Positions 9,267 to 48,779 of a DNA stretch of 64,000 bases are shown one piece after another. Position 1 is the stretch's first letter, and each line of letters starts with the position of its first letter. The stretch is from Cenococcum geophilum 1.58 (lineage: Eukaryota > Ascomycota > Dothideomycetes > Gloniales > Gloniaceae): the NCBI GenBank assembly GCA_001692895.1, contig KV748189.1, positions 628,432-692,431 of the forward strand. Reading direction: 5' to 3'. A program made the position numbers and the translations under genes. Under the pieces are notes generated by a model that was not told the DNA's origin, ran no database searches, and saw nothing but the letters and a program-made list of their open reading frames with translations.

Positions 9267-9552
9267 CGTAATTAATATATTTATCCGCTTCTTTTAGAAC
9301 CTAAGTATAATAAATCTTTAAGCCTAAACGTAGTTCTATTACTAGCTATCTTATTACTAATTTAGAGGATTTTAAAAGCTTCGCCTTATATAGTAGTAAA
9401 TTACCTAATTATATATTTACGTTTATCCCTAAACCCCTCTATAAAATAGAGATATAAAGAAAAATAATAAATAATTAGTTATAGGTAATATAAAAATATA
9501 AGTTATATTTATAATATTAAAAGATTATAGCAAATATTTAATTTAATAATAT

Positions 9553-9754
9553 TGTTGGAATATAGGAGTAGACAAAGAAGACAGCACGGCTAGTAGTTAT
9601 TTGTTTTACGTGTTACGTATATAAAATATATAAACTACGCAAAACGCGTATATATTATTAAACACTACACTATAAAATAGAACCTTAAGAATCTAACTAT
9701 ACACTGCACTGCACGTATATTACGTTTATTACACCATATTAAAGTATCCTAATA
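9553..9754 (+). repeat. 5' LTR of copia element 1
   Basis: It begins TGTTGGAATATAGG and ends ...agtatcctaata, where the expected terminal ACA has become ATA. It is 202 bp long, the same as the partner at 15425-15626. Confidence 0.9.
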
Positions 9755-9955
9755 CTAATTAGTGAGCGCGCACAGATTAGGAAACACGTAGATAACTTAG
9801 AAGATAGTTATACTATCCACCTTACAGCAGATTAGAAGATAGTTATACTTATCCACCTTTCCTATTAGCCTATTTTAGTTAAAGAAAAGAAGAGAAACTA
9901 CTTAAAAGTACTTATCTGGTATCCACAACAACTTCTAAATATCTCGTTCTATCTA

Positions 9956-10170
9956 CGGAGGTGCGTTTCAAAAGTCTTCGCCGCCCCTTGTTGGGCGGTC
10001 TTATGGGCGGTGACTCCCTGAGGTTGGTAGGGTAACGGGCTAGAAGCCGCCCAATGGCGCCTTTAAGGTCCCCCAGAACCGGCTTAAAATGCGCCCAATT
10101 TTCGGCTATATGTGGGCTCTTTAGGCTCAACCTAGGCAGGGCCGGCAAAGACTTTTGAAACGCACCTCCG
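9956..10170. mobile_element. 215-bp MITE with TA duplication, not RIP-mutated
   Basis: The ends are a near-perfect inverted repeat of about 30 bp starting cggaggtgcgtttcaaaagt. TA dinucleotides flank it at 9954-9955 and 10171-10172, which points to the Tc1/mariner superfamily. It has clearly higher GC than the copia leader around it, no TA enrichment, and intact CA/TG dinucleotides. It therefore probably landed after the copia element was hit by RIP, or was too short to be recognised. It encodes no transposase; the minus-strand open frame across it (9912-10148) is incidental. Confidence 0.85.
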
Positions 10171-10299
10171 TATTCTAAAAGATTACTACGTAAAATATCT
10201 TACCCCTTACCTAACTTAAACAACTTAACTACCTCCTTAACCGCCTCCTTAACCACTCCCCTACCTCTACCCTATAAATACCCTTACTTACCTAAATAA

Positions 10300-13200
10300 T
10301 ATATAAAATATAAGATGTTAGGAATAGAGAAAGATTAGAAGGAAGAAGCAGCTAAATAGGAAGATGGAATTAACCTAACGGAAGCCTCTAAAGATAAACT
10401 AACTAACTACTTATAATGTAAGATGTATATATACATAGAGATATACAACTAGCTAGACTTAATACTCTAGGAATTATTTTAGGGAGATTTTAAGGATTTT
10501 ACGGTTAATATCTTTACGCAAATCCCCTTATACTAGCTTTAGCAACTATATAACTACCTAAATATTAAAGGAGTATAGGTTAATGTTAACTATAAATAAG
10601 GCAAAATGCTCCCTTAGTCTTTATATAATATAGTATAAGAAAAAAACCAAACTAAATAGAGTATAGAGATAATTAAATTAGCTAATAATAAGTATAAACC
10701 AACGCTATCTAGATTAATTAAGGTATATACAATAAAGGGTACTTTAGAGGAGCAATAATAAGCTAAAGCTACCGCAACCCAACTAACTGGTACACTAACT
10801 ACCTCTACTTTTATATTAACTGCTATACCTTAACCTATAAATACCTTTACTTTTATACCATCTGTTACACCTTAACCTATAATAATATAATAACTCTATA
10901 TACAACCCACAAACGAGGAGAACTGCCCTATTACTGCAACCGGTTATAGTAAGAAAATTATAAATATAGTTAAGATATACACAGAGGAGTAAAAATATAG
11001 TAGTATAAACAAAAGCCTTAACTATAAATTAACAATATTCTATAATATCTGTAATTAAGCGGACGTACCATAAGAAGCTTACCTTAAGGCATTCCCTACT
11101 ATATTAAAAGGACTAGCTTTAGACCACTTCTATATAAACTAACTATCCCGCCTACTATTTGCCAAAGTCTATAAGCACCTTTAGAATTTCTTTAAAGGAC
11201 TAAGATTTTAACGCAAGAACCTAAATAAGTAGAATACTATTATACTTATAACGGCAATAGTAGGAAATATAAATAAGGCTATAAGCAAATGCCTCTAATT
11301 ATTAATTTATAGACTTTATTAACTACAGTATAGCCTTAAGCCCACCTTATAAACTATAGACTTCCTTTATAACAAAATCGTCACTTTTTACCAGGGAGTA
11401 TTAGTATATAGATATATAGTCTCTAACCCACTAGACAACTTTAGAGCCCTTATTAATAAACTTTAATCGTCTATTATAGTATATAAGAAAGAGTATATAG
11501 AGAAGACATAAGCTTTCTTTACGGACTAATAATTCTATAAAAGAGATAATAACTATAACCGTAATAACCGTAGTAACCGTAGCAACCCCCTATATAACCG
11601 CAACCGATAGAAACCACGTTACTTTATATATAATAGGGAAGGATATCGCTTATAGAAATATATTAAGGAGAAGTAAGAAGAGTCTAAGACTAGGTTTAAA
11701 AATAAGTTTAAGGACCACCTTTAGGAATAAATAAAGCAATATATTATAGACTACAAAGGCAACGATAATAAGGATAACGACTTAGATAATAAAATCACTA
11801 ACGTATTTAACGCCCTAGTAGTTAATATAGACCCCAGCACCCTATTAGACAAAGACGACCAGGCTATAGCATATTACACTTTATACGGCAAGATTAAACT
11901 AGATAATATAACCGCTATAGCTTTAGAACTGGCCAACAGAGCATACAGCCACGCAGTTATAACTATTAATACTATAATAAATGCATTCCTTACTAATATA
12001 AACCTGTTTGCGTATAATATAACCTTATACTACACCTCTATAAAGTTTATAAGTATAATAATTAACACTAGAGCCTCTAAACGTTCTACGGCAAAATACG
12101 GTTAGTTTCTTATACTTTAGAAGATTAATAAAGTACAGTTAAACAAGTCTATAAAAGGTACAGTTAGCGTACAGTTTGGAATAGGCTCTATATCTTCCAT
12201 TGGTTCTATTAAGGTAACTATACTAATAGGCACAGTAGAGTTCCACGTTATTAAAGTCAACACCCCTTTCTTATTTTGCCTAGCGGATATAGACAACTTA
12301 TAAGTATACTTTAATAACCTAAAGAATATCCTAATAACCCCCTTAAAGACCGTACCAGTTATATACCGATTTGGACACCCGTTTCTACTATAAAATACTT
12401 TATTACATATATTTATTATAAAGTCTTTTAACTAAAACCTATACTACCTAACGAATATAAAATTGCGACGCCTATACCAACGCTTTAAATATCTATTAGT
12501 ATAGTAACTTAAAAGAATATTAGACCGCGCTAGCTATAAAAACAATACTAATCGTAAGACCCTTAAGTATATTACCCGCTATTACTTATACTGTTAAAAG
12601 CACGGAAAGTTACTAAGCAGATTTAGATTTACCTTAAAGGACGACGTTAATTTTAACTACTACATTATCGTTAATATTATATATATAGACAGCAGGCCCG
12701 TACTTTATATTATTAATAAAGGCACCTAATTTTAAATAGGTAAATAGCTATATAATATTAGCGCTAAGTATATATGGGACATATTATAAACGTGCTAGAT
12801 TAATACATACCTAGGCCCCCTAGATGTGATTACACACAACATAAAAAAGAACTTTATTAGTAGAGAGTTTAAGCAATACGCGGTTAATATAGGCACTACT
12901 ATAAAGAGCGTACCGGTCAAAGCTTATAACTTAATTAGTATAGTAGAGCGTTACTATAGCCCCTTACGACGTATATACTACATTATCACTTCTAAAATAC
13001 TAGGAATTAATAAGGATATGGCACTATAAATGGCCTTTAAAGTAATTAATAACTTCGTAAAACCAGACGGCCTACTACCTATACTATTAGTATTTAGAGC
13101 GTACCCCTAAATAATAGAGTTTAATATACCTTCACCTACAGTAATATAGCGTGTAATTGCACTTAAGAAAGCTATAGAGGAAGTAAAGAAAATATAAGTG

Positions 13201-15240
13201 GAACGCTAGGTTACAAATGCACTTAATATATATAATAGCCCTAACACTACCGCAATTCATAATCTACCCCTTAACTCTTTAATACTAGTCTAGAGAGAAG
13301 GCAGTATAGAATAACTTAGATACTAGGTAGGACTATATAACCTACTAAATATTAAAGAAAAAATATGCACTGTTAACCTACCTAGCGGCCCTATAAAGTT
13401 CTATAGCACTATTATTAAACTATACTTAACAGACCCTAAATATATTTAGGCTGAGGATATTTAAGCTAATAGTACCTAAGTTAATAACATCCAAATTAAT
13501 AATATTTAACCCACTATAGAAACCGCCTTTATATAGAAACCGTCCCTTACTAAAACTAAAGAAGTACAACTACCCTGCTAAGGAAGAGGAAGACCCCACA
13601 AGTATCCCCCCCATATTAATACTACCAACATTACTATATTCTCGCAAGAGGATAGCAACTATAAGTAGTTCGAAACGTCCCATTAAAAGGAAATTATAGA
13701 ACTAATTAAAAAGGGCGTATTTAAGATAATTAACCCTTAAGACGTACCCGCGGGAACTAGAATCTTTAACTTATAATTTATAGATAAGATTAAGAACCCC
13801 AGTACTAATAAAGCCTTTAAGAAATTAAAACTCGTCGTCTAAGCGTATAATAATCTTAAAAAAGGCATTATACTAACCTAGTTACCTACTATCTAACGAG
13901 TTAGCTAACGCCTTATCCTATATATTATAGCGATACTATAAGACAACGGTATACAGTTATACCTATAAGATACCTCCTAGGCGTATATCCAGTCTCTTAT
14001 AAAGCTAAATTAAGACTTTTATATTCGACCACCTTATAAACTAGGAAGCTAACTAGGTATTAAAAAGAACTTAATCTTAAAGGTAATTAAGCCTTTATAC
14101 GGTGTCCCAGAAGTAGGCAATTACTAGTTTATAACCTACTATAATTATTATATTAAGGAATTAAATATAAACTTATTAACGTATAACCCTTACCTCTTAT
14201 AAAGTAACACTCCTAACTACTTTAGTATTATTAGCCTTTAAACTAATAATACTCTCTTCTTAGCTAATACTACCTTTATGAACGCGGAACAATAGTAGCT
14301 AAAAAGGCTTACTTTCTTATAAAAGAGCGCGAGCAACTTACGGTTAAGTAGTTACTTAAATTTAATAGATATATTATTTAACTCTCTTAGAAAGGCAAAA
14401 TTATAATAACCTAGGAATGCTAGTATAAGAACCTAAATATAGTTTACCTTAGTAAAGCAGCTATAACCACAAGCTTAAGAGGTACTGTCCGCGATATACT
14501 AACTATAAAGGAATAATACGTTGCGTAACGCGTAAGAGGCGTATATATTGCCTCTATATATTAACTAAAAGCCTCCTTTAATCTCTCTTTTACCGCCTAG
14601 GTAATTAACCCTATAAAGGAAGATATTACAGCACTTAATAAACGACTATAATTGTAAATCGATAACCCAATAAGAGGCCTTATATTTATTAAACTAGATA
14701 TTAATATATTACGCCTACTTACTTTTATTAATACCTTATTCGCTAATAATAAGGACCTCTTATTACAAATAGGATATATACTAGTATTAAAGGACGCGTT
14801 ATATAAGGCTAATATTATCTACTAGTTATTAATTAAGTGCAAAAGAGTTACTAAAAGCGTACTAGCCTTAGAACTCTACGTAATAGCCTACGGATTTAAT
14901 ATTGGCGCCGTAATTAAGTTAACCGTCAAATAACTCCTATAAATTAAACTCCCACTTATACTTTGTACCGACTTAAAATTACTCTATAAATGTTTTATTA
15001 AGCTAGGCACTATATAAGAGAAACGTCTTATAATAGACGTTATATGTCTTTGTTAGTTATATAAGCGCAAAAAGATTACAGAAGTTAAGTAAATTAATAG
15101 TAATAGTAACCCTACTAACTCGATAACTAAAAGCAAGGCATCTATAGCTTTTAAGAAGTTAATTAATACTAATTACTTAGAACTATAAACTATAAAGTAG
15201 GTAAAATAGAAAGACATTTAATACAAAAGGAGATTTAACT
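10300..15240 (+). pseudogene. Copia 1 gag-pol polyprotein, RIP-killed
   Basis: Gag-like sequence occupies about 10300-11640. Integrase follows at about 12560-13130 and includes an open 67-codon piece at 12826-13029 with the block VERYYSPLRRIYYI (family: VERYH-x-PLRRAY), then DGLLPILLVFRAYP. The reverse transcriptase is at about 13670-14250, with KKGVFKIINP and DVPAGTRIFNL near its start and KPLYGVPEVGNY further on. RNase H is at about 14940-15080 with TDLKLLYKCFIKLGT and QEKRLIIDVICL-type blocks. Stops sit mainly at expected Gln codons. In a live element this protein packages, reverse transcribes and integrates the RNA; this copy has dozens of stops and is dead. The integrase-before-RT order assigns it to Ty1/copia. 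Confidence 0.9.
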
Positions 15241-15279
15241 AATTAGGATTTTCCATACCCGGTATAGAAAATCGTTATT
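15241..15279 (+). other. Conserved hairpin upstream of the 3' LTR (copia 1)
   Basis: attttccatacccggtatag is the centre of an imperfect palindrome, followed by gctcgctta and tagcgcctta. The same hairpin plus following block occurs at the equivalent place in copia 2 (22729-22771, reversed) and in the gag-only element (55842-55884). It lies about 145 bp before the 3' LTR. Confidence 0.75.
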
Positions 15280-15424
15280 AGCTCGCTTAACACTAGCGCC
15301 TTAGCGGCCCCCATAATATATCCACCTGCTATTTAATAATTCTTCTTCTTCCTTTCCTTAGCTTAATATCTTTACTATTACAAAAGAGGTTCTATTGGTT
15401 TTTTAGCATTTAAATAGTTACTAG

Positions 15425-15626
15425 TATTAGAATATAGGAATAGATAAAGGAGACAGCACGGCTAGTAGTTATTTGTTTTACGTGTTACGTATATAGAGTA
15501 CATAAACTACGCGAAACGCGTATATATTGTTAAACACTACACTATAGAATAGAACCTTAAGAATCCAACTATACACTACACTGCACGTGTATTACATCTA
15601 TTGTACCGCGTTAAAGTATCCTAACA
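15425..15626 (+). repeat. 3' LTR of copia element 1
   Basis: It is 202 bp and starts tattagaatatagg, where the expected TGTTGG has become TATTAG by G-to-A change. It ends ctaaca. It pairs with 9553-9754. Confidence 0.9.
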
Positions 15627-15652
15627 AATATTTACTATACCAAAATTAAGCT

Positions 15653-16030
15653 AGCCCTAGTACCTTCTTAAATCCTTTTAAATCCTACTTGTATATTACT
15701 TTAGCCTCTTTATACTTATCCTACCTTAATAATACTAACCTAAGGTTATTAACACTAGTAAGTATAAAAGGGTGCTTTAGCCCTAGTACCTTTTTATATC
15801 CTTTTAGCGCCCGCTAGTATATTACTTTAGCTTTTTTATACTTACCCTAGCTTAATAATATTAATTTAAGGTTATTAATACTAGTAAGCGTAAAAGGGTA
15901 CTCTAGCCCTAGTACCTTTTTATATCCTTTTAGCGCCCACTAGTATATTACTTTAGCCTCTTTATACTTACCCTAGCTTAATAATACTAACCTAAGATTA
16001 TTAATGCTAGTAAGTATATTAATATACTCT
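15653..16030 (-). repeat. 126-bp tandem repeat = 42-residue TPR units (left copy)
   Basis: Units start at 15653, 15779 and 15905 (spacing exactly 126 bp), with a fourth occurrence of the ctagtacctt landmark near 16025. On the minus strand each unit reads as a TPR helix pair, with GKYKEAKVI and KVLG motifs. It is coding repeat, not satellite. The right copy shows only three occurrences of the landmark. Confidence 0.85.
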
Positions 16031-16488
16031 AGACCTAGTACCTTCTCTCTTACTTTCACTAATATTTAAATAACTTTCTTTATAGATTTATACTTACCTC
16101 TAAGGTATAGGTACTAGCCTATACTAAAAGCAATCTTTACTTAATTTAGTTCGTTCTTTTTATCTTTTATTTTATAGCTAATAGCTTCTCTTATATAGGG
16201 GAGGAGTATTTAGTAGTCTACTTATATTTTATAGTCTCTATTAAGAAATACCGTAGTTAAAACTCTTATTAACTCCTTTATTTATTTATTTAGCTACTTA
16301 TCTACCTTAAGCTACCTTCTTATTAATAGCTGTATTAAATAGTATATCTTAAATAACTACTTTTTAATTTTTACTTAAATAAGGGAAAAGCTTAGTAATG
16401 GCGCTAGAGCGTTCTTAAAGTCTAGCTAACTAGTACTATTTTATAGTAAGGATACTAAAATACCCTATTTATTAAATATGCTTATTAA

Positions 16489-16514
16489 CTGTAACGGGAC
16501 TAGCCCAGTTACAG
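16489..16514. other. Near-palindrome at the LINE 3' end
   Basis: ctgtaacgggactagcccag followed by ttacag is an almost perfect inverted repeat at the extreme 3' end of the LINE. It may be a stem-loop used for recognition of the element RNA by its own RT, as in other LINEs, but this is inference. Confidence 0.5.
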
Positions 16515-18931
16515 TAGGAATGTCTCGGTGAAACACTCGACAAATGAATTCCAACGCATCGACCAAATTCTGTCGAATTTTACCGAAGACCGCGTGCGTA
16601 TATACGCACGCATCGACCACCAAGCCCCCTAACTATTTAATTATATAATTCTCTCGTTATTCCTTTCTCTTTTTTACGCAACGTCTTGTACTCTATAAGA
16701 GCTATATACCCTTAGATTTAAATAGAATTTATATTATTCCTTTAAATCTTCCTTAAAGCCTCTTAGCGCCCTTATATTAACGTAAGTTTTTATTTTTATT
16801 TTTATATCCATTGTATTGTACTACGTACAATACTACGCGTGCAGCCTCTAGGCTATGGCGCTATAGTTTTATATATATAAATCCTTTCTAGGCAGCTTAA
16901 TATATACTAGTAGCTATATCTTAGTAGTTTATAAACCTTTAGACTAGAGGTTTACCGCTCCCTAGTAAAATACTAGGTTACGACAACTATTAGGTGGTAT
17001 TAAAACAGTAGAAAAACGGTAAAAGAAATGGTAAAAGAATCCTAACGCCTGCCCCTGTACAATTTATAGTTTATTTCTGTCTTTTTGCTCACTACTGTCT
17101 ATTTACTAGAAGTCTAGTAGGAGTTACCTCCTTCTAAAGCTTCTGCTTCCATTAGCCACTTTTTAGTAGCTATTTTTGTCTTACTTAGGAATAGGAAAAG
17201 CGCCCTTCTTCCTTTCTCTGTACAAAAGAGCTTCTCTAGGGAAAGAGAAGAGCTTAGTTGTCTTTGCATTTCTTTTCTCTCTTCTTAGTATAGTCTGTAT
17301 TCTAGTAATAGGTGCTTAGGAGTCTGTATAGCTCTACAGTCCTTAAAGCATCTACCTTCTTTATCCTTCCCTATTGTTTTAGAGAAGGATTTAAAGAAGC
17401 CTTTTCCTAGTTTTAGTTAAAAGAAAGCTGATTATAACCTTTTAGGATATTTATCCTTAGGGGCTTTAAGAGATAAAGAGTAGTTTCCTTTAGAGATCCT
17501 AGTATAGTGTTTTCCTTTATTTTTTTTCTGTTGCCAGTTGCTTTTCCACTATCCTAATATTTTTTTCTCTTGCTGCTCTCCCTATATAGGCTAGGGATGT
17601 ATAAGAAGATTATATTTTTCTTCTAAAGAGGCCCTTTTTAGCTAGCTTATTTGCTATTTCATTTCCGTAGATTCCTAGGTGACTAGGAACCCAGTAAAAG
17701 TTAATAGAGATATTTTTACTAGCTAGATAAGAGCAGCTTTACGTAATTTTAAAGACTAGTTCTTGTCCCCCTGTAAGAGAATTAAGCTATAATCTTTTAA
17801 TAGCTGCTTGGCTATCTATAAAGATATAAACTTATTTCTCTTCTAGTCTTTATTGTTTTAGATATTTTAGGGCCCTATAGACTGCATAAAGTTCTGCGTC
17901 TATAATTTCTATATAAGGCCCTAGATTCCAATTTATTGCGTATTTAATCCTATTTCTCTCCCCTATTTTACATATGGCCGCTACACTTAATTTACTATCT
18001 TTAGAGCCATCTGTATAGTATATATCTACTAGGTCCCATTCTAGGGATTCTTATAGATTTTCTACTAGTCTTAAATGTTCTTATATAGCTTCTTCTTTAC
18101 TACCCCTAGAGATAGAAAAGAATGTAGAAATAGGGAGAGACTACGGTTTTTGCTAATCTAGAGAGATTCTCTTTATTTTCCAATTTTAAATTAGTTGCTG
18201 GACTCTAGAAGCTAGAGATAGTAGTTAAGTTTTTAGCTGTAGAAGGTGTCTTATAGTAGAGTTTCTAGGGCTAGAACTAGAACTAGAACTAGTCACTAGT
18301 TCCTCCCTATCCTTATTAATCTCTTCTATATAGGCCTTCTTAATTGCGTGGTTTTCTTTAAATTTTAGGATTCTTAATGCATAGCTATTGCAAAGCTTTT
18401 TAAATTTAATTCTAGGAGGAGGGATAGAGGCCTCGATTTCTATAGCTTGTATAGGAGATCCTCTAAACGCTCCTAAAACTAGTTTTAGGGCCTTATCTTG
18501 TAGAGATTGGTACCTAGCTAGTAGGTAGTCTCTAGATTTGCTTTTCCACCAGCATTGTATTCCATAGTCTGCTATAGTAGTAACGCAAGCTATATAGAGC
18601 TGTCGTAGAGCTTATAGAGATAGACCTCTTTATATATTGCCTAGTCTTCTAATTAAATAGAAGGCTGTTTTTGCTTTCGAGATTTTTATTTTTACGTGTT
18701 GTTTATAAGCTTAGAGTTTAGAAATACCCCTAGCTACCTAACTAGGGGTTTAGGGGATATTTCTGTATCTCCTAGCTTTAGCCCTTCTTCTATAGTAGTA
18801 CGCTTACTATAGAAGTGTATAAGCTCTATTTTGCTAAAATCAAAACTAATAGCGGCTTCTTTAGCTCTAGACATTAGCTCTAGCGCTATTCCCTCTAGCT
18901 TTTTACAATTGGATTTAGCTGAGTTTGAAGA
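16490..18931 (-). mobile_element. Tad-like LINE, 5'-truncated
   Basis: The 2442-bp insertion is flanked by tattaac at 16483-16489 and 18932-18938, a 7-bp target duplication. The empty site is seen in the right arm around 46570-46590. It reads on the minus strand and starts abruptly inside the reverse-transcriptase palm, so most of RT, the endonuclease and ORF1 are missing. That is the usual result of incomplete target-primed reverse transcription. The 3' end (16490-16625) is less mutated and ends in a near-palindrome (16489-16514). Confidence 0.85.
16650..18930 (-). pseudogene. LINE RT (C-terminal part) and RNase H remnant
   Basis: The frame starts at SSNSAKSNCKKLE just after the RT active-site position; the open stretch to 18734 includes AKEAAISFDFSKIELIHFYS and GDTEISPKPLV. 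RNase H follows at about 17640-18035, with YYTDGSKDSKLSVAAIC, ELYAVYRALKYL, FIDSQAAIKRL and FYWVPSHLGIYGNE, i.e. the Asp, Glu, Asp and His positions of the fold are all kept. The tail (about 16650-17600) is strongly interrupted. RT with a C-terminal RNase H is the Tad1/I-type layout common in ascomycetes. The copy is dead because it lacks the 5' half. Confidence 0.88.
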
Positions 18932-21395: not shown

Positions 21396-21521
21396 CCTTA
21401 ACCCGTTAAAATACATCCAATAATTATCAGCCAATTAAAATATCTGGATTAGCGAAAGACACCCAATAAAATCTAGTCGTAAACTTAAGCGACTTTAGCG
21501 TAGGGCTCTAACGGGTTAAGG
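21396..21521. mobile_element. 126-bp MITE-like element
   Basis: 13-bp inverted ends ccttaacccgtta and taacgggttaagg bound a sequence that is not strongly TA-enriched. The target duplication is probably TA but cannot be separated from the palindromic ends. It lies at the inner edge of the left arm and has no counterpart in the right arm. Confidence 0.6.
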
Positions 21522-21688
21522 AATAGGGTTTTTTAATACTAAATAGGGGGCGGGTTAACTTATAAGGCATATTTAGTTATCATTCTATAATATTTAGAAT
21601 CTAAGCTTATAACATCTCTCTTAAAAAAGCTTCTAATTTAGTAGAGAAATATATATTAAAAGGTTAATATAACTAAAGAGAAAGTTAA

Positions 21689-21909
21689 TATAAGGCATAT
21701 TGCTAGGGTATACGGTAGGGAGTAGGTAAGCCAAGCATAAGTTATAAGGAGAGTTAATAGAAAAGGACGATATAGTAATAAGGGTAGGTAATAGCCTACG
21801 TATAGAGACGAACCAATAAGGAGGGAAAGGGCTATAAGCCTAAGGGAGCTTATAAGGAGGTGCTAAGGGCTAGCTAAAGGCCAGCCTTAGCAGCCGCTAA
21901 AAGATCCCT
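21689..21909 (-). repeat. Partial copy of a 263-bp LTR-like repeat
   Basis: Starting tataaggcatattgc, this is similar to the reverse complement of 45758-46020, including the tacggtagggagtaggtaag block and the gctaaaggccagcctt hairpin region. It is RIP-mutated. Similarity fades around 21909. Confidence 0.65.
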
Positions 21910-22319
21910 TATAGTTAGCCCCTTATAGCAGCTCCGCTCTAAGGCTTTAAGTATATAGCTATTAGCTAAGCGCTAGGGTTTAGCTTATACTGCCTATATA
22001 TAGCTAAGAAGCTAAGTAAGGCCCTACCTTCTTTAAACCCTACCGCACCTTATATAATACTCTTTTTTAGTTCCTTATTTTAAGGTATATATATATTATA
22101 AATACTATAAATTAGGCACTAAAGTTTTGCGTAGCACTTTTATCTATTTAAACGCTATTCTAGGCCTATAATATAGATAGTAAATATTTACCGCTATAGA
22201 TTTATAAGGCTCTTAGCTAGAAAGGGAAATAATAACTAGTTTAGCTTAAAGTTAGACTACGTTTTTTTCTGTTTTAGGGCTATTTACTAACTCGCTATAG
22301 TATAATATTTATTTATAGC

Positions 22320-22520
22320 TGTTGGTTACACAAGGGGATATTACGTAGCTACGGTTCGTAGATAGTATAATAGTTATTGTTCTTCTTGTATATCCTAAAG
22401 AAAGGGGTAAGGAACTTAAGGTTCCTCACCACGCTAGTGCCTCGGCGACACGTGACGGCAACTTGCCGCACGTAACGGCAACTTGCCTCACGTGACGGCA
22501 ACTTGCCTATATTCCCAACA
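22320..22520 (-). repeat. 3' LTR of copia element 2
   Basis: On the plus strand it runs from tgttggttacacaagg to tattcccaaca. It holds three tandem units of cacgtgacggcaacttgcct type (about 22450-22510). Confidence 0.9.
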
Positions 22521-22771: not shown

Positions 22772-22799
22772 CTAGGTTAAGTTAGGGTCTACAGAATCT

Positions 22800-34316: not shown

Positions 34317-34320
34317 ATAT

Positions 34321-37700: not shown

Positions 37701-40700
37701 TGGAGTAATACAAAACTATATCTTACTAATAGTAGTAAAAAGGATGGGATTACCTTATAGATAGAAGGAATAACCTTACCTATTAGTTATAATTTTAGGA
37801 GATCTAATAGCCTATAGAGGAGGTATTATTAACCTTAAAACAGGACCTATTTAGATAACTATTAAAGGGAGATAAATTAAAATGTCTTTTAATATCCTAC
37901 TATTAGGACAGAATAAGGCAGTATTAGGCATACCTTAGTTACAGGAATATAATCTAAAGATTAATTAAATTATAGGTTAGGTTAATATTAGAGATATTTA
38001 ACGCCGTAAAATATAATAAGAAACTAAGTTAGTATAGTACTAAGTTAGAGCGATATATAAAGAGACTAAGTAAGGCTTAAGTTATATACTAAAGAGATAC
38101 TATAAGTATAGTAAGAAACTATATAGCCTAGAAAGTAAAAAGCTGGTAAATTATATAGTATAGGACTATAAGATAGAGTTAGAACTAAAAATAAGTCTAA
38201 GGTTCTTTCTAATCTATAAGCTTACTTAGGAGGAGTTAAGAGCACTTAAAGAGTTTATCTAGGAGAACTTATAAAAGGGATATATTAGACCATCGCAGTT
38301 ATTAGTAGGATATTTAGTATTATTTGTACTAAAGAAAAACGGAAAACTTAGGCTATATATTAACTATAATAGTTAAATAGTATTACTTAAAAGGATAAGT
38401 ATCCTTTACCCTTAATTAGCGAGATTTAGGATTAGATAGGTAACGCGTAAATCTTTATAAAGATAGATCTAAGATAGGCGTACCATTAGATTAGAATTAA
38501 GGAAGGTAATAAATAAAAAGCAGCCTTTAGATTAAGAGAAGGACTATATAAACTATTAGTAATGCAGTTTAGGTTAACAAATATACCAGTAATATTTTAA
38601 AAAAGAATTAATAGTGTGTTAGGAGAACACCTTAATAAGTTTATTATAGTATACCTTAACGATATTATTATCTACTTAATAACTAAGGAAGAATATAGGG
38701 AATACGTTAAATAGGTCTTAAAGAGACTATAAGAGGAACAGATGCTAGTAGCAATTAAGAAATACGAGTTCTTTACTAGGAAGACCGATTTCGTTAGATT
38801 TATTATTAAACTAGGTTATATTAGTATAGACCCAAAGAAGATTAAAGCTATAGTAAATTAGCAAGAACTAGAGAATATAATATAGTTAAGGTTATTTTTA
38901 GGGTTTTGTAACTACTACAGAAGGTTTATAATATAGTGGTTAAAGAATATTAAACTATTTACTAAGCTTATAAAGAAAGAGGAACTATAGGTATGGGGAG
39001 ATAAATAAAGGAAGTTATTTAGCGAACTTAAAGAGTTGTTTACCTAGGAGCCAATCTTTAAAATCTATTAACTAGGACTAGACACGGTTATAAAAACGGA
39101 TGTATTAGACTTTATACTAGGAGTATATTTACTATAGAGGTATAAGGACGTATAGTATCTAGTAATATATTACAGTCGGAAGATAATACTACTAGAACTA
39201 AACTATAACGTCTATAATAAGGAGTTATTATATATAGTTATAGTACTTAAAGAATAGAGAGTATTCTTACAAGGCGTAGAAAAACTATTTATAGTTAAAA
39301 TAGATTATAAAAACCTAACGGGGTTTCTAATAATAAAAGAACTTAATTATAGATAGGTTAGATAGGTAGAGATACTTATAGAATACTATTTTAAGATTTA
39401 GTATACTAAAGGAACCAAGAATATAAGAGCAGACGCACTTAGTAGAAAGGCTAAACTATAGAATAATAAGAAACTATTAGGAACAATGCTACGCAGAGAT
39501 AAGGATAGATTAATTAGATATAATTACCCTAAACTAGCAGTAACTTAAGAGAATAACAAACTAGAAAGAGTCTATAAGATACTAGAGAGCTTTTAAGTAT
39601 AAAGAATTCTAAAAGCATAGATAGATATATATAAAAACTAAGAAGTAAAGTATATCCTAAAGAGTATAGTAGAGTATTTTATAGAAGATTTTTATAAGGG
39701 AATAACTTAAGGGCATAATGGAGTAATAGGCTTAGTGTTAAGACTTTAAAAAGAATATATTATTAATAGAATTTAGAGTATAGCTAGAAAAGTAATAAAA
39801 GAGTATTTAAATTGCTAAAGGAATAAACTAATAAGGCATAAGCTATATAGAGGGCTATAACCTATTAAAATACTAGAGAGACTATAGGAGGTTATATTAT
39901 AGGACTTTATTATTAAGTTACTAAAGTTAAGAAATCCTATTACCGGATAAGAGTATAATATAATCTTAGTAATAGTAGACAAGTTAACTAAATAGGGCTA
40001 CTTTATAGCATATATAAAAGAAATCTCAGCGGAGGATATTACTAGAATCTATATTAAAGAAGTATTTATAAGATTTATAGTAGTATTTTAGGAGGTATTC
40101 TTAGCGGAATAAGGAGTTAGAGCAGCAACTTCTACTATATATTATCCGCAAACGGACAAATAAATAAAAAAATTAAATTAGACGCTAGAATAATATCTAA
40201 GGCATTATATTAATTATGCATAGAATAATTAGGTGCTATTATTACTAGTTATATAGTTTGCGTATAATACAACACTATAAAAAGGGATAGGTATATTACT
40301 ATTTAAGGCAAATTACAGATATAAGCTAAGAATATTATTATTACTATAATAAGTAAAGAAAATAAGTAGCACAGCTAAAGAAAGAATAAATATATTAATA
40401 AATCTTTATACAGACTTTATAGAATTAGTAAAGGCAGTATAAAAGAAAATAAAAAGGTACTACGACGCTAAGAGATCTAAGGGACTAGATCTTAAGGAGG
40501 GGGATAAAGTATAGCTACTATATAAAAATTTTAAGAGTTAACAACTAAGTAAAAAGTTAAACTACGTTAAACTAGAACCTTTTAAAATTATTTAGAGGAT
40601 TTTACTGGTTATATTTAAGTTAAACCTACTAGCTAAAATAAAGATCTACCCTATATAGTATATTATAATGCTAAAGCTAGTATACGGGAATGTTAAGCCA

Positions 40701-40900
40701 CTAATTTATAAAGTAGATACGTATAAAGGATAAGAGGAAGATAAATAGTAAGTTTTAAAGATTATTAGTTATAAGGACATTAATAATAAAATATAGTATA
40801 AGGTTAAGTAGATAGGCTATAATAAGACTACCTAGGAACTACTATAAAATTTAAAGAATACTATAGGAAAGGTATAGGAGTATTAGAAGAAAACGGGTTA
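34780..40900 (+). pseudogene. Gypsy 2 gag-pol with chromodomain, RIP-killed
   Basis: Gag-like sequence runs from about 34780 and ends in a CCHC-type knuckle at about 35771-35825 (INYRKQSHYIKDCKSG, two Cys lost). A middle protein-rich region (36200-37700) and a protease-like block around 37660-37700 follow. RT is at about 38200-38720, with GYIRPSQLLVGYLVLFVLKK, NGKLRLYINY and VYLNDIIIY (the YLDD box now YLND). Then come GFCNYYRRFI, RNase H with LELNYNVYNKELL (about 39190) and GTKNIRADALSRKA (about 39420). Integrase is at about 39700-40300, with TSTIYYPQTDK, and a chromodomain at about 40745-40890 (YKVKWIGYNKTTWELL). Stops replace Gln/Trp codons throughout. The order RT, RNase H, integrase, chromodomain defines a chromovirus. 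Confidence 0.92.
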
Positions 40901-40959
40901 GGTAATATTAAAAAGGAGCTAAAGATAAAAGAATTAGTTAAAGGTAATAGATAAGCTAG

Positions 40960-41500
40960 ATTATCTAAGGGATCTACCACTAGCATATAAACTATTTCCG
41001 CCTCTTCTTAATTAGAATCCTTTTTAGCCTCTTTAGCCTTAAATTTAAATAGACCTTACTTTACTAAGCGAAGCTCTTTTAAGCGCACTTTTTTTATAAA
41101 CCTTTACTAGACGGCTTAGATAAGTATAAGTATCTAGTTAAGCTTTTAGAGCCTAAGACGCCTTATTAGAATAATACTGTACTTTAATAAGGGCCTCGGC
41201 TAGTTTACTCTTTAGTCTTTTAGCCGCTACTAATACGCGCAACCCTAGAGAAGATTAAATAAGGAACTAGACGGTTATAAAGAATAATAAAACGCGTATA
41301 TTTAGCGTTAGAGATAGATTAAATATTATAGGATAATCGCATATTTACTCGCGTACACTTAGTATAGAAAGAAGGTTAGTAACTAGATAGAGACGTAATT
41401 GCAATATATACTAACTTCTTCTCCGTATAATAAGAATAGGATAGTATAACTTTACTAAGTAATAGAATAAACGTTACTAGCTAGTTATAATGATTAGACG
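40960..41500 (-). pseudogene. Possible antisense accessory frame between pol and 3' LTR of gypsy 2
   Basis: On the minus strand a frame from about 41500 to 40960 has few interruptions apart from TAA/TAG, and includes LRVLVAAKRLKSKLAEALI, KVQYYSNKAS and LDTYTYLSRLVKVYKKSALK. The sequence is rich in Lys, Ala and Leu and could form a coiled coil. I do not recognise a family. The plus strand is much more broken here. It could be a non-coding 3' region that reads by chance. Confidence 0.35.
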
Positions 41501-41630
41501 CAAAGGATCTAATAGAAGGTATTAGAAATAATAAAGATTATTAAATTAAAGATAGAAATGCTATACCTCTAATAGACGACTTAGAGATAGAAGATATCTT
41601 TAAGGATAAAGATAAAGAGGAGGGGGATAG

Positions 41631-42050
41631 TATTACGGACCTTATATCGGCAGTAGTACGACTACTAAGAATAGATATAAACAGGTTGGTTAAGATAGTA
41701 TAGGAGGCGCTGGAACTAATTAAGCTATAGGATAAGAGGTAGCCGAGTTACGTAGCTAGTTACGTTATAAGTTTAAAATATAAAAACGTGAGAACGTGGG
41801 AACGCGATATACTGACGTACTAATATACTAACGTACTAAACCCTTTACTATAGGGGGGAGTTATATATTTAAGGACACATGGTCTCTACAGATAGTTTCT
41901 CTTCTTTATAATGAATCTTAGAATATAATTAGAGTTAATCTATTGGGTAATCACTCCGCCAGTTATTACTACGTTATTGACTTCCTATTTACCTATATAC
42001 CCGGCCTATTGATAAGTCCACTATAGTTCCTGCTATAAGGCTTCGTTATA
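41631..42050 (+). repeat. 3' LTR of gypsy element 2
   Basis: 420 bp, starts tattacggaccttatatcgg (G-to-A change in the first TG) and ends cttcgttata. The partner is 34321-34740. Confidence 0.92.
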
Positions 42051-42055
42051 TATAT

Positions 42056-45000
42056 CTAATTATAAACTAGCTCCTTATAGTGCTTATAGGATAAAATTAA
42101 CGTGTTTCCGGTATTTAGTTGGGTTATTACTATATATTAGGATATTGTTAATATAAGTAGTACAGAAGATATCCAGGTAAGGACGTAGGGTATTATTTAT
42201 ATAATATTAAAACAAGCTCGGAGCGTTTGCGAGGCTAAAGGGTATTATTAAGTACTTAAATAATCTATATTGGGTACAAAATGTAGTAAGCTATTTGTCT
42301 CCTTTTATAATACAGAGGCTGTTAAATATAGAGATAATATTAAGCTTTATATAGAAGTAAGCCTTAGTTAGTTAGTTTAGTGTCTCCTATATTAGTGGGA
42401 TTAGATATTAGTTTTTAACGGTAATAGTATTAAAAGCTTAATAGTCTATATAGAAGCGTAGTCCACTACCTAGTTTCTTAATAAAGATTATTAGTATAAC
42501 TATAGGTAAAGAGCTTACTCTAATAAATCCTTTACTTAGGTTCTTGTCTAGATACTTTTATAGCACTTAGAGTTTATTTTAGAATATCCTATATAGGGGT
42601 CTAAATCCAGGCTGCTTTCCTTCTTTAAGTACAATCTTATAGTCGTATAATCGGTATTTCAGTAGCTTATTGGCTTCCTTTTATAAAAATACTTCTAGGC
42701 GGTTATAGTACTCTACTAATACCTTCGTAGCAGGGTTAGTGTACTTCTTCAGTGCTAAGGCCTTCTTAATATTAGCTATAGTAACAGCAAAAATTATATA
42801 TTTAGGTTTCTTAGCAAGTCGCGCTAGTAGGGTAGCTCTAATTATATAGATATTTAGGGCGTTAAGCAGGCTCTAGTCGTCTATAGTTTCATATATAGTT
42901 CTTTATTTAATTTTAGGTTTGGTATTAGGTATAGAGTTAGTATTAGATTTAGATTCGGGTTCTTTAAGTATTCTTTTTATTATAGAGTACCAGTTTTTCT
43001 AGTAGTTTTATATACTAAGCTTAAGCTTCTACTTAGTTTAGGGCGGTGTAGTACTTAGGGTCTGTTTATAGGGTTTAGTAGAATTTTTAGATCTTTAATA
43101 GATATTAGTAGAAATCTTACGTTAGTAGAATTTAGTAGAATTCCTAGGTTAGTAAAATCTGGTAAATTCCTTAGGCATAGGGTAGATATTAGTGGAAATC
43201 TTAGGCTAATAGATTTTAGTAGATTTTCTAAATTTTAGTTTAGGGTTAGGATGGTGCGTTATAAGGCACTTCTGCTTATAACAGGAGGCGGTAAATAAAA
43301 GCTTAAGGTTGTCCTAATTAATGGTTACCTTATATAGCCTTATCTAGGGTTGTTTAAGAATTACTAGGTAACCTAAGGTGGTAACTGTTATAGCACTAAC
43401 GCGCGTAACCTGGATAGGGCCTAGTTAGGGGGGTTCGCTTACGCCTTAGCTCCATGTATATAGACGTATCCTTTTTACAACCTTTTTTTGCTCCTTATCT
43501 TAATATCCGGGTCTATAGACTACCAATTATACAGGCTTGCATACGTTCTACGGCGCTCGTGCCTTAATTGACTAAGTCGCTATAATAGTAACAAAGAGCT
43601 TAATTAGTTCTTTATAGTTTAGGGATTAGAGTCTTAGGTATACTACATAGGTAATTTAGCCTAAGACCGTGCNTTTACTATTAAATCTAAATATATTAAT
43701 ATGCCAGTCGAGGGGGGTTAAGGTAAAACTATTATCTTACGCGAAGATTTTATTAATAAATCCTATGCTACTAGCTCCTATATTAATTAGGACTTAAGTA
43801 TTAGCCTATTAATTATTCTACTAAATACAATAGTTAACAGTTATACTACGATCCTAAGAGTTAGAGTTTGTAATATTTAAAGCATTTAATAAGATCCTAA
43901 GGTAGAGCCGTTCTAAAGAGCGACTTAACTCTAAAATATGCCTTTTAGTAGTAAGCGAGAAGGGGTTCCTATAGAATATTAGTTATAGCTTTACCCTTAT
44001 AAGTGGTGCTTATTAGATATAGGGCTAAAACTAAGTAAAAATTAAGGGTGGTAACTAAAAGATTAATACGGTAAATGGTTGCTAGTATTAGCTGTTTATA
44101 AATTGTATTTAGGTATAGGGACGGAGCAGTAGTTAAAGAGGTAGGAGTTACTTCTATATTTAAAGCAGAGGCCTAGCTTAATACGTTATTCTTATTTAGA
44201 GGACCCTAGTAGGGCGTATTTTAGGGTTCTAGTGTTAATATCTATGGCGTTAGGGTGCTTAAACTAAGATAACTTGGTAGACATTTATAGGGCTATTATA
44301 TTATATTAAGGAGCGTGTTTTAGTATTAGGCGTAGTATATTATTATATTATTTGTTAATAACGTTTATATAGGCATTAAGGGCTCCTAGTAGGTCTACGC
44401 CTATTAAAGAGGTTTTTAGTTTAAGGCTTAGGGATTTAATAAGGCTGTTAACTAATATAAAGTCGTTCTAGCTAGTTTCCTTTACGTAACGGTTGAACCT
44501 GGAAAAGTATACTAGGAAACTTTTCGTTCCTTAAGCTATATAGTTTATTTTCCTCTAAGTAGTAGCTTAGCGGTTTAGGTTACCGTATATAGCTTTAAGA
44601 AGTATAACTAGGCTTTATACTAAGTTTAGCTAAAGAGGTTTAATAAGATTAGCTGCCTCTTCTCCTAGTTAACTTAGGGCGTAATAGAGTCGGTTAGCGT
44701 TACTAGTTAGCTTATTTTTAAGCTAGCTTAGAAATAATTAGAGCTTTTATTATTTACTAGTAAATACTAAAGGATTTAGTAATTATTTAAATTATTATAG
44801 TATAGTAGTTGGCTTAGGGTAAGAGACTATTATAGGTTTAGGGCTTGCGTTCCGCGTATTTATCTCTAGAGATAGCGTTTAGTTTTAAGGTCCTAGCGTA
44901 GGTATCTTAAGGGTATAAATTTCTTCTTAGAGGTTCTTAATTAATTACTAGTGTCGTGGTTCTTATTTAGCTTATTATTAATTTAAAATAGCTTAGTTCT

Positions 45001-45130
45001 ATATAAGGGCGTCTATAAAAGACTTCTATATCCCTACTAATTATTCTTAGAGTACGGATATAATATCGGCGGCTATTATAGGAGTTTTGGGTTCGTTCTG
45101 CATGTTAATAATAGTATAGGTAGTTAACGC
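42056..45130 (-). pseudogene. Gypsy 1 gag, protease and reverse transcriptase segment
   Basis: Reading leftward from the 5' LTR, an ATG near 45100 starts MQNEPKTPIIAADII, a gag-like protein extending to about 43500. RT appears at about 42690-42056, with KEGKQPGFRPLYRIF, SKGFIRVSSLPIVILIIFIK, KKLGSGLRFYIDY and AFNTITVKN; these are the usual gypsy RT blocks 1-3 with RIP-type substitutions. The sequence then runs into gypsy 2. One undetermined base (n) is at 43673. Confidence 0.8.
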
Positions 45131-45137
45131 AACGTAA

Positions 45138-45517
45138 TATTATAGAGTAAGTATAAGCGGCGATAATATATAGTAAGGTAGGTATTATTAAGCTATATAT
45201 ATAAACTGTATAAGGAGGTTAAGACGTTATATAAGGAAAGAAGGTAGGAAAATAGGAAGAAAGGGTATATATTATGGACTTAGTTGCTTAGTTAATATAT
45301 ACACGAAGTAGAATAGGATTTAAGTAGTAGTCCTAGCAGAACTTAGCAGGATTTAGTAAAACTTAGTAGAACTTAGTGGAATATAGTAGAATGCGGTAGG
45401 TTGCCGTTAGATTGCCGTAGATTGCTATTAAATTACCGTCTTATAGTCGGTCTCTAGTTACTAAGTTAGTAAAAACAGGTAGACGTATATAAGGTATTAT
45501 GGGGATATCCTATAACA
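45138..45517 (-). repeat. 5' LTR of gypsy element 1
   Basis: 380 bp, plus-strand limits tattatagagtaagtataag and gatatcctataaca. It pairs with 29598-29977; differences are largely transitions. Confidence 0.9.
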
Positions 45518-45757
45518 GTAGTCTAATATATCTTTAAGAAGTTATAGATTACGATTAAGTATACGTATAAAGTTTAAGAGGTAGAGTAATATACTTTAGT
45601 AGTATAGATATATATAAGTAATCCTACTAGATTTAAATAAGGATATAAAGCTATTACTAATAAATTTTTACTTTCTAGGCAAGAATATCTAAAGGTTAAT
45701 ATCTTATAACTTATATATATATAGCTATTAAATAGGAGAAATAGGTAATAGCTTATA

Positions 45758-46020
45758 TATAAGGGTACTTTTAGTCCCTTACTTGGCTATATCCTGGGAG
45801 CTCTTAGGGGCTGCCAAGGCTAGCCTTCGGCTAGGCCTTGGCCGCCCCTTATAAGCTCCTCGGGCTTACAGCCTCCTTTCTCCCCTATCGGTTTATCTCT
45901 CTCTCTTAGTATAAGGCTATTGCCTACTCTTTACCATATCGTCCTCTTCCATCGACTCTCCTTGTAACTTATGCTCGGCTTACCTACTCCCTACCGTACA
46001 CCCTGGCAATATGCCTTATA
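45758..46020 (-). mobile_element. 263-bp insertion, probable solo LTR
   Basis: Inserted in the NB-ARC region of the right NLR copy and absent from the left copy (empty site agcttataatact near 19490, reversed). It is flanked by ttata at 45753-45757 and 46021-46025. The ends tataagg/ccttata would fit TG...CA ends after RIP. It contains a strong hairpin ccaaggctagccttcggc/taggccttgg near 45820-45850 and is GC-richer than its surroundings. A partial copy lies at 21689-21909. Confidence 0.65.
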
Positions 46021-46999
46021 TTATAATACTTAATAATGCTAATAATAATTTTTTTCTCTTACTAATAAAGATAATATAAGTATTATATAGAAGAGCGATA
46101 TTATAAGCTACGCGAGGCCGCTTAGAGCCTTTTTCCCTTAAATACTAAATAGAATCATTTTTATTACCTTAAGGAATAAAAATACGGTATTTAGTTTCGT
46201 GGGGATATATAATAAAATAATCTAGATGGAGCTAATGGATAAAAAGAAAGCGCTAGCGCTGCTTAATACTAAGGTGCTATTTAGCAAGTCTAATAAAGCT
46301 AATATAAAAGCGCTTATCTAGGCTCTAGAATATATATATCTTATAATTACTTATACTACGGCGTATATTAAGATAAAAGTACCCCTAATAACTATATTGG
46401 GCTACCTTAAGCTATTCCGTAAAAGTAAGGTAAATTGGGTATATTTCTTAGGTAAAAAGAGTATAAAAGACCTTTATCGAGACTATAGTATATAGTATAT
46501 AGTTATCGCAATATAGTAGATTTTATTTATCTAGATCTAGTAAATAAAGTAGTTAGCTATAGACTTGCTTGTATTAATAAGCATGTTTAATAAATAGGGT
46601 ATTCTAGTATTCTTGCTATAAAATAGTACTAATTAGCTAGACTTTAATAACGCTTCAGTACTATCACTAAGCTTCTCTTTTATTTAAGTAGAGATCGGAG
46701 AGTAGTTATTTAAGATATACCGTCTAGTATAGCTATTAATAAAAAGGTAGCTTAAGGTAGATAAGTAGCTAAAAAAAATAGATAAAGAAGTTAATAGGAG
46801 TTTTAACTATAGTATTTCCTAATAAAAACTATAAAATATAGGTAGATTGCTAAGTACTCCTCCCCTATATAAGAGAAGCTATTAGCTATAAAATATAAGA
46901 TAAAGAGGACATACTAAATTAAGTAAAAATTATTTTTAGTATAGGCTAGTACCTATACCTTAAAGGCGAGTATAAATCTATAAAGAAAGTTATTTAAAT

Positions 47000-47600
47000 A
47001 TTAGTAAAAGTAAGAGAGAAGGTACTAGGCCTAGAGTATATTAATATACTTACTAGTATTAATAATTTTAGGTTAGTATTATTAAGCTAAGGTAAGTATA
47101 AAGAGGCTAAAGTAATATACTAGTAGGAAGGGAATCCAGTATATTTAATCCCTAACTATAATACTAGCGCGTCTATAGGCTTGCTACGGCAGCAGTGGTT
47201 CCTAAGGAGGTTAAAAAGTAAGGTAGTAGAGCACCATAGGCGACTTGTAGGCGCCTCGCAGGCGTTAAGTAAGCGAGTCCTAAAAGGCGGGGATATAGGT
47301 CACAGGGTTTTCTTAAGTAGAGTTTTCTCCCTATGTATAAATAAGGAGTAGTCCGCGTGGGCCTAATAGGGATCTAAATCGGACGTTAAGCAATAAATAA
47401 TATTATAATATATATATACTAATAAGCGCTAAAAGGATATAAGAAGGTATTAGGGCTAGAGCACCCTTTTATACTTACTAGCGTTAATAACCTTAGGTTA
47501 GTATTATTAGGCTAGGGTAAGTATAAAGAGGCTAAAGTAATATACTAGCGGGATTTAAAAGGTTTTAAAAAGGTACTAGGGCTAGATTAATTTTAGTATA
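47000..47600 (+). repeat. TPR repeat region of the right NLR copy, split by an insertion
   Basis: The aaggtactagg-type unit landmark is seen near 47025, 47451 and 47570, i.e. three times against four in the left copy. The plus-strand frame reads GKYKEAKVI and KVLGLE-type TPR motifs. About 290 bp at 47124-47417 interrupt a unit. Confidence 0.75.
47124..47417. mobile_element. About 290-bp insertion in a TPR unit, possible solo LTR
   Basis: The left arm gives the empty site as tatactagcgggcgctaaaa. Here the site is split, with tactag on the left and tactaa on the right as a likely 5- to 6-bp duplication. The insert has near-normal composition in its middle (aggcgacttgtaggcgcctc region). It encodes nothing recognisable. 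Exact borders are uncertain by a few bases. Confidence 0.55.
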
Positions 47601-48779
47601 GTAAATATTATAGAATTAAATATTTGCTATAACCTTTTAACGTTATAAATATAACTTATATTCTTATATTACCTATAACTAATTTTTTTTATCTTTATTT
47701 TATAGAGAGGTTTAGGGATAAATATAAATATATAGTTAGGTAATTTGCCACTATATAGGGCGAAGCTTTTAGAATTCTTTAGATTAATAATAAGATAGCT
47801 AGTAATAGAACTATATTTAGGCTTAAAGATTTGCTATACTTAGGTCCTAAAGGAAGTAGATAAATATATTAATTATACTAGTAGGAAGGGTGGCCGATCC
47901 GCTCTAGCTACACCCTTATTAAGGTGGCGTTTCCTAAATATTAGCGTGGTTAAAGCTACGATTTACTTTATAAAGGAGATAGAACGTTTATACCTAAGTA
48001 AATAATAAGCCGATTTTAATAAGCGAATACTTTTAAGAATTCCCTTTTTTACTTATACCTCTTAACTAACTACACTATAAGCCTCTACCTTATATGCCTT
48101 TGCTAGTCCGTTACTAATTAAGAAGCGTATGACGCTAAAACAGCCCTACGCCTTTAAGCTCTGACTTTCTTCTAATAATAATATATTACTTTCCTTTATT
48201 TCCTTAGTTAAGTATAGTATTAAGTAATAGATATATAATTTTTATAGTTGGCTTCCAAACTAGAGCAAGCATATTAGTAATAGGAAGTATTTAACTAGCG
48301 CTCTATAACGGCCTATACTCTAAATAGTACGGCTATAATAATAATATATATATATATATACGTGGTTTAAGAACTAGCAATAATTCTAGTAGTAGTGCAG
48401 CTTAAAGAGATATAATAATATAAATTTTAGCGTTGGAGGCTAGGGAGCGCCTTAACCAAAATATAGAGTATTAGAAGCTATTTTTGGGGTCCTTTTTAAG
48501 ATATAGGGTAGCGTTCCTATAATAGTTACGTAGTGTCTAATATATATAGCCTCTTCTATATAGCACAATTATTATATAGGGTGTTATCTATTTAACTAAA
48601 GCCTCTTTCCTTAGCTAAAGAAAGGTGGCCGCTATAGAGTTGGCCGCTATAATTATAGGAGGTAGGTTTGTATTGCCCTATAAGGCTAAATAAGCCAAGA
48701 CCCATATATTAGTCTCTATAGGTAACTTTATTCTACTACCTTCCGCTTATATACGCAAGCGTAGTGTCCGCCTTTTAAC

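Follow-up and report, generated by a model that had tools for sequence, protein, structure and literature searches.

Structure of the palindrome

The window analysed in this study is a 64,000-nucleotide stretch of the Cenococcum geophilum 1.58 genome (contig KV748189.1; C14:628432-692431), and the genome searched was one assembly of 177,193,698 bases in 162 contigs. For the mapped genome of this fungus, a size of 178 Mbp and a repeat share of 81% have been published (PMC11799279; PMC5023957). The main feature of the window is a large palindrome that carries two broken, head-to-head copies of an NB-ARC-type/DUF7779/TPR gene and ends on both sides in a short inverted motif (Table 1). The GC content was about 0.46 at the left end of the window and dropped to 0.22-0.35 in the middle, with 0.20 in one arm piece. 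An Rfam scan of the window gave no family above the gathering scores.

Self-BLAST of the window showed seven inverted blocks linking 9222-21394 to 21925-47922, with E-values from 2e-73 to 0. An earlier reading made from the letters alone (the sequence-only reading) had predicted a giant head-to-head palindrome, and the inverted diagonal was found at the places it named. The limits it proposed, 9267 and 47877, lie within the palindrome; the true limits are slightly further out, at 9222 and 47922. Without inserts, each arm is about 3.6 kb long, and the arms are split by three long terminal repeat (LTR) retrotransposons and smaller inserts. The arms were identical in 3114 of 3485 aligned columns when small block overlaps were counted twice, and 368 differences in 3449 columns remained when the overlaps were trimmed. 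The 2.46-kb inner part of the left arm had five matches within the palindrome and, among the best candidates scored genome-wide, one further match of 82 bp at 77%. The short repeat at the palindrome centre recurs at 45796-46023.

The gene on the arms

The same gene lies on both arms and reads outward; its strand is minus in the left arm and plus in the right arm. An intact frame of 776 amino acids on contig C102 aligned to both arms (tblastn E=9e-55 on the right, 6e-50 and 4e-31 on the left), and the alignment includes the P-loop exon. A purine/pyrimidine alignment, which is blind to transitions, placed the match between arm and C102 frame at z=57 above shuffles. This homology along both arms bears out the earlier view that an NB-ARC/TPR gene is present in two divergent copies, both broken. 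The predicted change from Gly to Arg or Lys was also seen by eye, since the left arm has RLKGIG where the C102 frame has GLGGVG.

The profile searches agreed with that view in part. Pfam found TPRs on both arms (TPR_10 at E=5e-14 on the left and at E=7e-4, under the curated cut-off, on the right; also TPR_12), and the 42-residue TPR array at the C-terminus appears in the DNA as 126-bp direct repeats. The Pfam search of the decayed arms gave no direct NB-ARC match. The C102 frame itself matched DUF7779 and TPR, with no NB-ARC at E<=0.01. It also matched the NB-ARC frame of a second locus, L069 (blastp E=3e-50), and the latter passes the Pfam NB-ARC cut-off (E=2.5e-8). A putative NB-ARC domain with a P-loop can thus be assigned to the arms through the homology chain from the arms to C102 and from C102 to L069. 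In the genome, 27 places were related to the NB region of the arms at E<=0.001, the two arms included, and several of them contain stops.

The sequence of about 1.3 kb on the 5' side of the NB region gave no Pfam match in six frames. The C102 gene has a hydrolase-like head, seen by eye only, and near a second paralogue (C9, L036) a separate frame matched Abhydrolase_6 and DUF676. A purine/pyrimidine alignment (z=0.7) gave no support to the view that the arms encode this hydrolase-like head of the C102 paralogue in their 5' part. Antisense coding in this part was suggestive by eye, with no Pfam match, and one frame piece matched the palindrome only. Three-base purine periodicity, tried as a RIP-proof coding test (RIP, repeat-induced point mutation), was too weak even in the intact control.

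RIP of both arms and the age of the insertions

RIP targets duplicated DNA once the copies exceed a few hundred bases, and it detects long, closely linked inverted copies. The 371 differences between the arms comprised 332 transitions and 39 transversions. The ratio (CpA+TpG)/(ApC+GpT) was 0.10-0.24 for the arm pieces; the four large inserts had values of 0.34-0.61, and the two HET genes of the window reached 1.30-1.35. RIP of both arms is well supported, and the killing of both gene copies by RIP, as previously claimed, is upheld by the transition excess and the near-total loss of CpA and TpG in the arms. The differences between the arms were clustered (variance p=0.002), and the longest identical run covered 25 consecutive G/C-bearing sites at 20182-20342 (permutation p=0.009). 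This clustering is a hint, and only a hint, of possible conversion between the arms after RIP.

The insertions postdate the duplication, because each of them breaks only one arm. Three LTR elements are flanked by 5-bp target-site duplications (TSDs) that were read by eye. The four LTR pairs showed 22+5, 7+1, 38+2, and 46+2 transitions plus transversions in 217, 148, 383, and 427 columns, respectively. The share of transversions in the LTR pairs (10/1175) was close to that in the arms (39/3485). This similarity puts the age of the duplication and that of the insertions in the same order of magnitude. The left-arm insert that is absent from the right arm contains a minus-strand frame of 128 amino acids (18225-18611), which may be a fragment of a non-LTR retrotransposon. 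Three short pieces (45758-46007, 21686-21908, and 47128-47413) have a GC content of 0.42-0.51 amid the heavily RIPed arms. The short GC-richer inserts may have been too short for RIP, or they may be later arrivals.

The terminal motif and the origin of the palindrome

The outer ends of the palindrome (tips 9227 and 47917) are formed by a 42-bp inverted motif, whose common forms are AAGGGTGTGGC(C/T)(A/G)G(A/T)GCGGGTCGGCCGCCCTCCC. The right motif differs from the left copy by 2 mismatches over 20 bp. Positions 9222-9530, which make up 309 bp at the outside of the left arm, had 49 genome matches, including itself and the right arm, and many of these covered the last 45 bp only. With a RIP-tolerant pattern and at most 3 mismatches, 290 copies were counted in the genome (136 forward and 154 reverse); the reversed control gave 0. 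The tip-based tests rest on 165 distinct listed copies of these 290, and tips 6730 and 62752 of the window are not among the 165. Adjacent listed copies within 20 kb formed 31 inward, 6 outward, and 5 same-strand pairs, where one quarter of the pairs is expected to face inward under random orientation. The spacing of the inward pairs was 2.6-15.8 kb under the imposed limit of 20 kb. The ends of the palindrome are therefore inward-facing terminal inverted repeats (TIRs) of a dispersed multicopy family, as in TIR transposons.

The palindrome is better read as one TIR-bounded unit, because its ends are the inverted motif of a dispersed family. We consider it likely that the sequence between 9227 and 47917 is a single transposon-like unit bearing cargo, whose arms grew over the receptor gene and were then saturated by RIP. 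The sequence-only reading had seen the duplication of a resident gene here. The two broken and RIPed copies agree with it, and the inverted terminal motif at the ends does not. Alternatively, a resident NLR-type (NOD-like receptor) gene would simply have been duplicated in inverted form and RIPed later. This would give the same arm anatomy and the same RIP signature, if the motif was an old transposon end that already lay downstream and was co-duplicated. The gene and the end module do travel together, as the end module of 330 bp also follows a 126-bp repeat array at another locus, L048. However, the repeat would then need to end at the motif on either side. Moreover, the motif is paired inward elsewhere (31:6), at spacings that bracket the length of about 7.7 kb which the present unit has without inserts. 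We believe that this origin is rather unlikely.

In another scenario, two separate units with the same NLR-type gene were inserted head to head, and both inner ends were then lost. Directly abutting tips are known: at position 94 of L073, at its left end, two motif tips touch each other (CCTT/AAGG), which shows that neighbouring units can touch. In the palindrome centre, no terminal motif was found at up to 6 mismatches, even though both outer copies of the motif came through RIP in good condition. This lack of a central motif makes the fusion of two units the less likely course, and we regard it as very unlikely. The growth of the arms would rather have taken place within one unit.

Under the single-unit origin, the starting point would be a unit with short inverted ends that bore an NB-ARC-type/TPR gene. 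An inverted duplication inside the unit would have lengthened the arms to about 3.6 kb, with one gene copy on each side. RIP, presumably triggered by the length of the arms, would then have saturated both of them and left AT-rich relics, in which retrotransposons would have landed afterwards.

Cargo of other units

Nine of the 31 inward pairs were read. L066 was the first to be noticed, L067 and L069 were taken for an NB-ARC-type match inside, and L068 for its identical ends. L070-L074 were chosen as the shortest of the remaining pairs, except that two pairs, on C11 (5.4 kb) and C18 (5.7 kb), were skipped. L066 carries ankyrin repeats, L067 carries HET, NB-ARC (below the Pfam cut-off), and TPR, L068 carries PNP_UDP, NPHP3_N, and ankyrin, and L069 carries HET (by homology to L067), NB-ARC, and TPR. 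Traces of TPR in RIPed DNA were found in L070 by DNA match only, and L071 contains HET, DUF7104, and TPR-like DNA. L072 contains DUF6594 and a gag-type protease, nothing was recognised in L073, and L074 holds a WD40 gene and a DUF7580 gene in head-to-head orientation. Recognition-type sequence was thus present in seven of the nine units, in five of the seven chosen blind to cargo, and in three of the five chosen by size. L074 (C1:3608560-3614730) has a GC content of 0.53 and lacks a RIP signature; it is a living-looking case of divergent genes in one unit.

The inverted-end matches of the units were 38-119 bp long, with the exception of L073, whose arms of 675 bp have 78 substitutions over 672 columns, all of them transitions. 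This unit may have followed the palindrome's course on a smaller and younger scale. In permutation tests on the nine units, with the window left out, a unit's own two ends were more alike than ends taken from different units, both at bases 1-44 (p=0.0006) and at bases 45-160 (p=0.0008).

The position of recognition genes relative to the tips was also counted, with the outer side of the tips as the sole control. The NB-ARC-type places came from 33 of 34 Pfam rows (one was dropped as a neighbour's duplicate) and the 27 relatives of the arm NB region. Merging within 3 kb gave 58 places, and 56 were left after removal of the palindrome's two. Within 5 kb, seven of the 56 had an inward-facing listed tip and one had an outward-facing tip; within 10 kb, the numbers were 8 and 1. 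Of 439 HET candidates, 150 places were scored: at 6 kb, 7 were inside and none outside, and at 10 kb the numbers were 7 and 2. The window HET gene near tip 6730 was scored as outside at 10 kb, since this tip is not among the listed copies. These counts rest on small numbers.

Neighbouring units and features of the window

Scanning the window with the 42-bp RIP-tolerant consensus at up to 6 mismatches gave five tips: 6730 (-) with 2 mismatches, 9227 (+) and 47917 (-) with 0, 58128 (+) with 1, and 62752 (-) with 6. Tip 6730 was found by inspecting the area near the copy of repeat X at 6799. The palindrome does lie between two HET genes, as had been noted earlier, one with a plain HET frame on the left and one with a HET-ankyrin frame on the right. 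Both appear to lie in units of the palindrome's family (tips 6730, 58128, and 62752). The first unit has only its right tip, 6730, in the window, and its left tip would lie beyond the window. The sequence at 6489-6715 resembles the end of L074 (71% over 232 columns). In the third unit, two alignments back tip 62752: one of 43 bp, in inverted orientation, with the end at 58128, and one of 106 columns with an end of L067. The HET-ankyrin gene of this unit and the HET head of L067 (on C2) are 81% alike over 777 columns, after which ankyrin stands in the former and NB-ARC/TPR in the latter. This shared head with differing tails suggests that units may exchange modules.

Repeat X abuts tip 47917 from outside, and its other window copy is at 6799-7045. 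It abuts tips from outside at a distance of 6-10 bp and in a fixed orientation in 12 of the 40 places scored. A 126-bp direct repeat (95%) was seen at 53307-53586, just beyond the palindrome.

Table 1. Features of the window (positions in the window)
Feature	Position	Strand	Evidence or remark
HET gene, open 611-codon frame, on inner side of tip 6730	463..2298	+	HET E=4e-32
Left arm outermost part, common 3' end module of unit family, ending in terminal motif	9222..9553	-	Inverted match to 47604-47922
Left terminal inverted motif, reads inward	9227..9268	+	0 mismatches to RIP-tolerant 42-bp consensus
LTR retrotransposon in left arm	9536..15624		217-bp LTR match, TSD CAAAT
Left arm, end of DUF7779 region and TPR repeats, 126-bp period	15627..16488	-	TPR_10 E=5.2e-14; tblastn with C102 protein
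2.4-kb insert in left arm, absent from right arm	16489..18931		
Left arm, NB-ARC-type region (~18930-20020, P-loop exon included) and ~1.3 kb 5' sequence	18932..21394	-	
Palindrome centre, ~291 bp spacer and short repeat 21686-21908	21395..21924		
Right arm, 5'-most part	21925..22317	+	
LTR retrotransposon in right arm	22320..28332		148-bp LTR match, TSD ATAGC
Right arm, 5' region as far as P-loop exon	28333..29597	+	
Large LTR element in right arm, nested direct-repeat pair 34317-42053	29598..45517		383-bp LTR match, TSD GTAGT
Right arm, NB-ARC-type region, DUF7779 region, and first TPRs	45514..47127	+	tblastn E=9e-55
Short GC-rich insert in right-arm NB-ARC-type/DUF7779 piece	~45758-46007		
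Short GC-richer insert within right-arm TPR array	47128..47413		GC 0.42 vs 0.27-0.28 in adjacent arm DNA
Right arm, last TPRs and 3' end module	47414..47922	+	
Right terminal inverted motif, tip 47917	47876..47917	-	0 mismatches to RIP-tolerant consensus
Repeat X, abuts tip 47917 from outside	47924..48158	+	40 genome matches scored of 187 candidates
Third unit, tips 58128 (+) and 62752 (-), 4.6 kb	58128..62752		
HET-ankyrin open frame inside third unit	61077..62489	-	HET E=8e-14, Ank_2 E=9e-37
Inverted block 1, left/right	9222-9553 / 47604-47922		Self-BLAST
Inverted block 2, left/right	15627-15822 / 47414-47609		Self-BLAST
Inverted block 3, left/right	15936-16488 / 46574-47127		Self-BLAST
Inverted block 4, left/right	18932-19511 / 46008-46579		Self-BLAST
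Inverted block 5, left/right	19494-19736 / 45514-45757		Self-BLAST
Inverted block 6, left/right	19728-21036 / 28333-29597		Self-BLAST
Inverted block 7, left/right	21034-21394 / 21925-22317		Self-BLAST

Discussion

Several observations weigh against the reading of the palindrome and its relatives as transposon-like units with RIP set off by long arms. Regarding RIP, only 54 of the 332 arm transitions are at CpA; most lie outside it, presumably because CpA is exhausted in both arms. The middle of L073 is about as RIPed as its arms (index 0.61 vs 0.46 and 0.54), and L066 and L070 look RIPed despite TIR matches of just 119 and 51 bp. The pattern in these three units indicates that arm length is not the sole trigger of RIP. 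Regarding the ends, the own-end similarity beyond base 44 rests mainly on L066, L071, and L073, and past this base the ends of L068, L072, L069, and L074 are no more alike than between units. In the window, tip 62752 is weak alone, as the best of 100 shuffled windows also reached 6 mismatches (mean 8.45). Regarding the cargo, no inward tip is listed within 5 kb of 49 of the 56 NB-ARC-type places or within 6 kb of 143 of the 150 HET places; the list covers 165 of the 290 copies counted.

No TSD common to the units was found by eye at the nine units, the third window unit, and the palindrome. Candidate duplications seen by eye were TTAA at the palindrome and TA on both sides of L066, with nothing convincing at the other units. 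A hAT-type 8-bp, a TA, or a TTAA duplication each fits different units, so none was adopted. No transposase domain was found among 18 frames scanned from nine of the 31 inward pairs. The sequence outside the tips is semi-conserved, with a few recurrent types (repeat X and others), so the true tips may sit further out. At L061/L062 (C6:2058100-2071800), the DNA beyond the motif also forms an inverted repeat, of 649 bp at 89%. Some units may therefore be larger than the span from motif to motif.

The lack of a consistent TSD and of a transposase in these frames, together with the semi-conserved flanks, would also fit a motif that is a conserved gene-border or regulatory element at both ends of recognition genes and not a transposon end. 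Against this stand the 290 dispersed copies, the similarity of the two ends within a unit, and inverted ends that vary in length from 38 to 675 bp. In addition, L072 holds other cargo, namely a gag-type protease and DUF6594. We consider such a border element quite improbable, and we suggest that the TIR-bounded units move or have moved.

Inactivation of NLR-type genes by RIP, which the sequence-only reading took to be unusual, is already known. The NWDp1 and NWDp2 pseudogenes of Podospora anserina were inactivated by RIP (PMC1805685). As in the palindrome, RIP broke recognition genes of the NLR type that have repeat domains; they are described there as members of a gene family, whereas here an inverted pair lies inside a motif-bounded unit. 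In Dothideomycetes, histone H3 was captured and amplified by a hAT transposon and then RIPed, which has been called transduplication (PMC6710886). That case is similar in that a host gene lies between TIRs and is inactivated by RIP in the same fungal class. It differs in that a single gene is described there, along with a transposase domain, TIRs of 20 bp, and TSDs of 8 bp, whereas here many recognition-type genes are involved and a transposase and a consistent TSD were not found in the units scanned. Fungal DNA transposons that encode TET/JBP dioxygenases (PMC12730594) also show that non-transposase genes travel with such elements. There, one enzyme family is reported beside transposases, whereas the cargo here is diverse and recognition-type, with no transposase seen. 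Plant head-to-head NLR pairs likewise consist of two divergently oriented NLR-type genes and are described as highly diverged sensor and helper genes (PMC12258605); the palindrome holds two copies of one gene, both dead.

Starships are large fungal transposons driven by a tyrosine recombinase, and they can carry NLR-type cargo. In this cargo they resemble the units described here. Unlike the large Starships, the present units measure 2.6-15.8 kb between listed tips and have inverted ends. No account of such motif-bounded units was found in the literature searched, which covered few subscription papers.

The Cenococcum genome paper reports that the HET, NACHT, and WD40 domain families are expanded, and its section 6 offers no mechanism (PMC5023957). 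We propose tentatively, as an idea that may well prove wrong, that small TIR-bounded mobile cassettes ferry and reshuffle recognition-type genes (HET, NB-ARC, NACHT, TPR, ankyrin, and WD40). If this is true, the recognition repertoire could spread below the length threshold of RIP thanks to short inverted ends and mosaic cargo. The palindrome would then be a case in which the ends grew and RIP destroyed the unit, that is, the cost of this route. Overall, motif-bounded units with mosaic recognition genes would provide a concrete and testable route for the spread of such genes.

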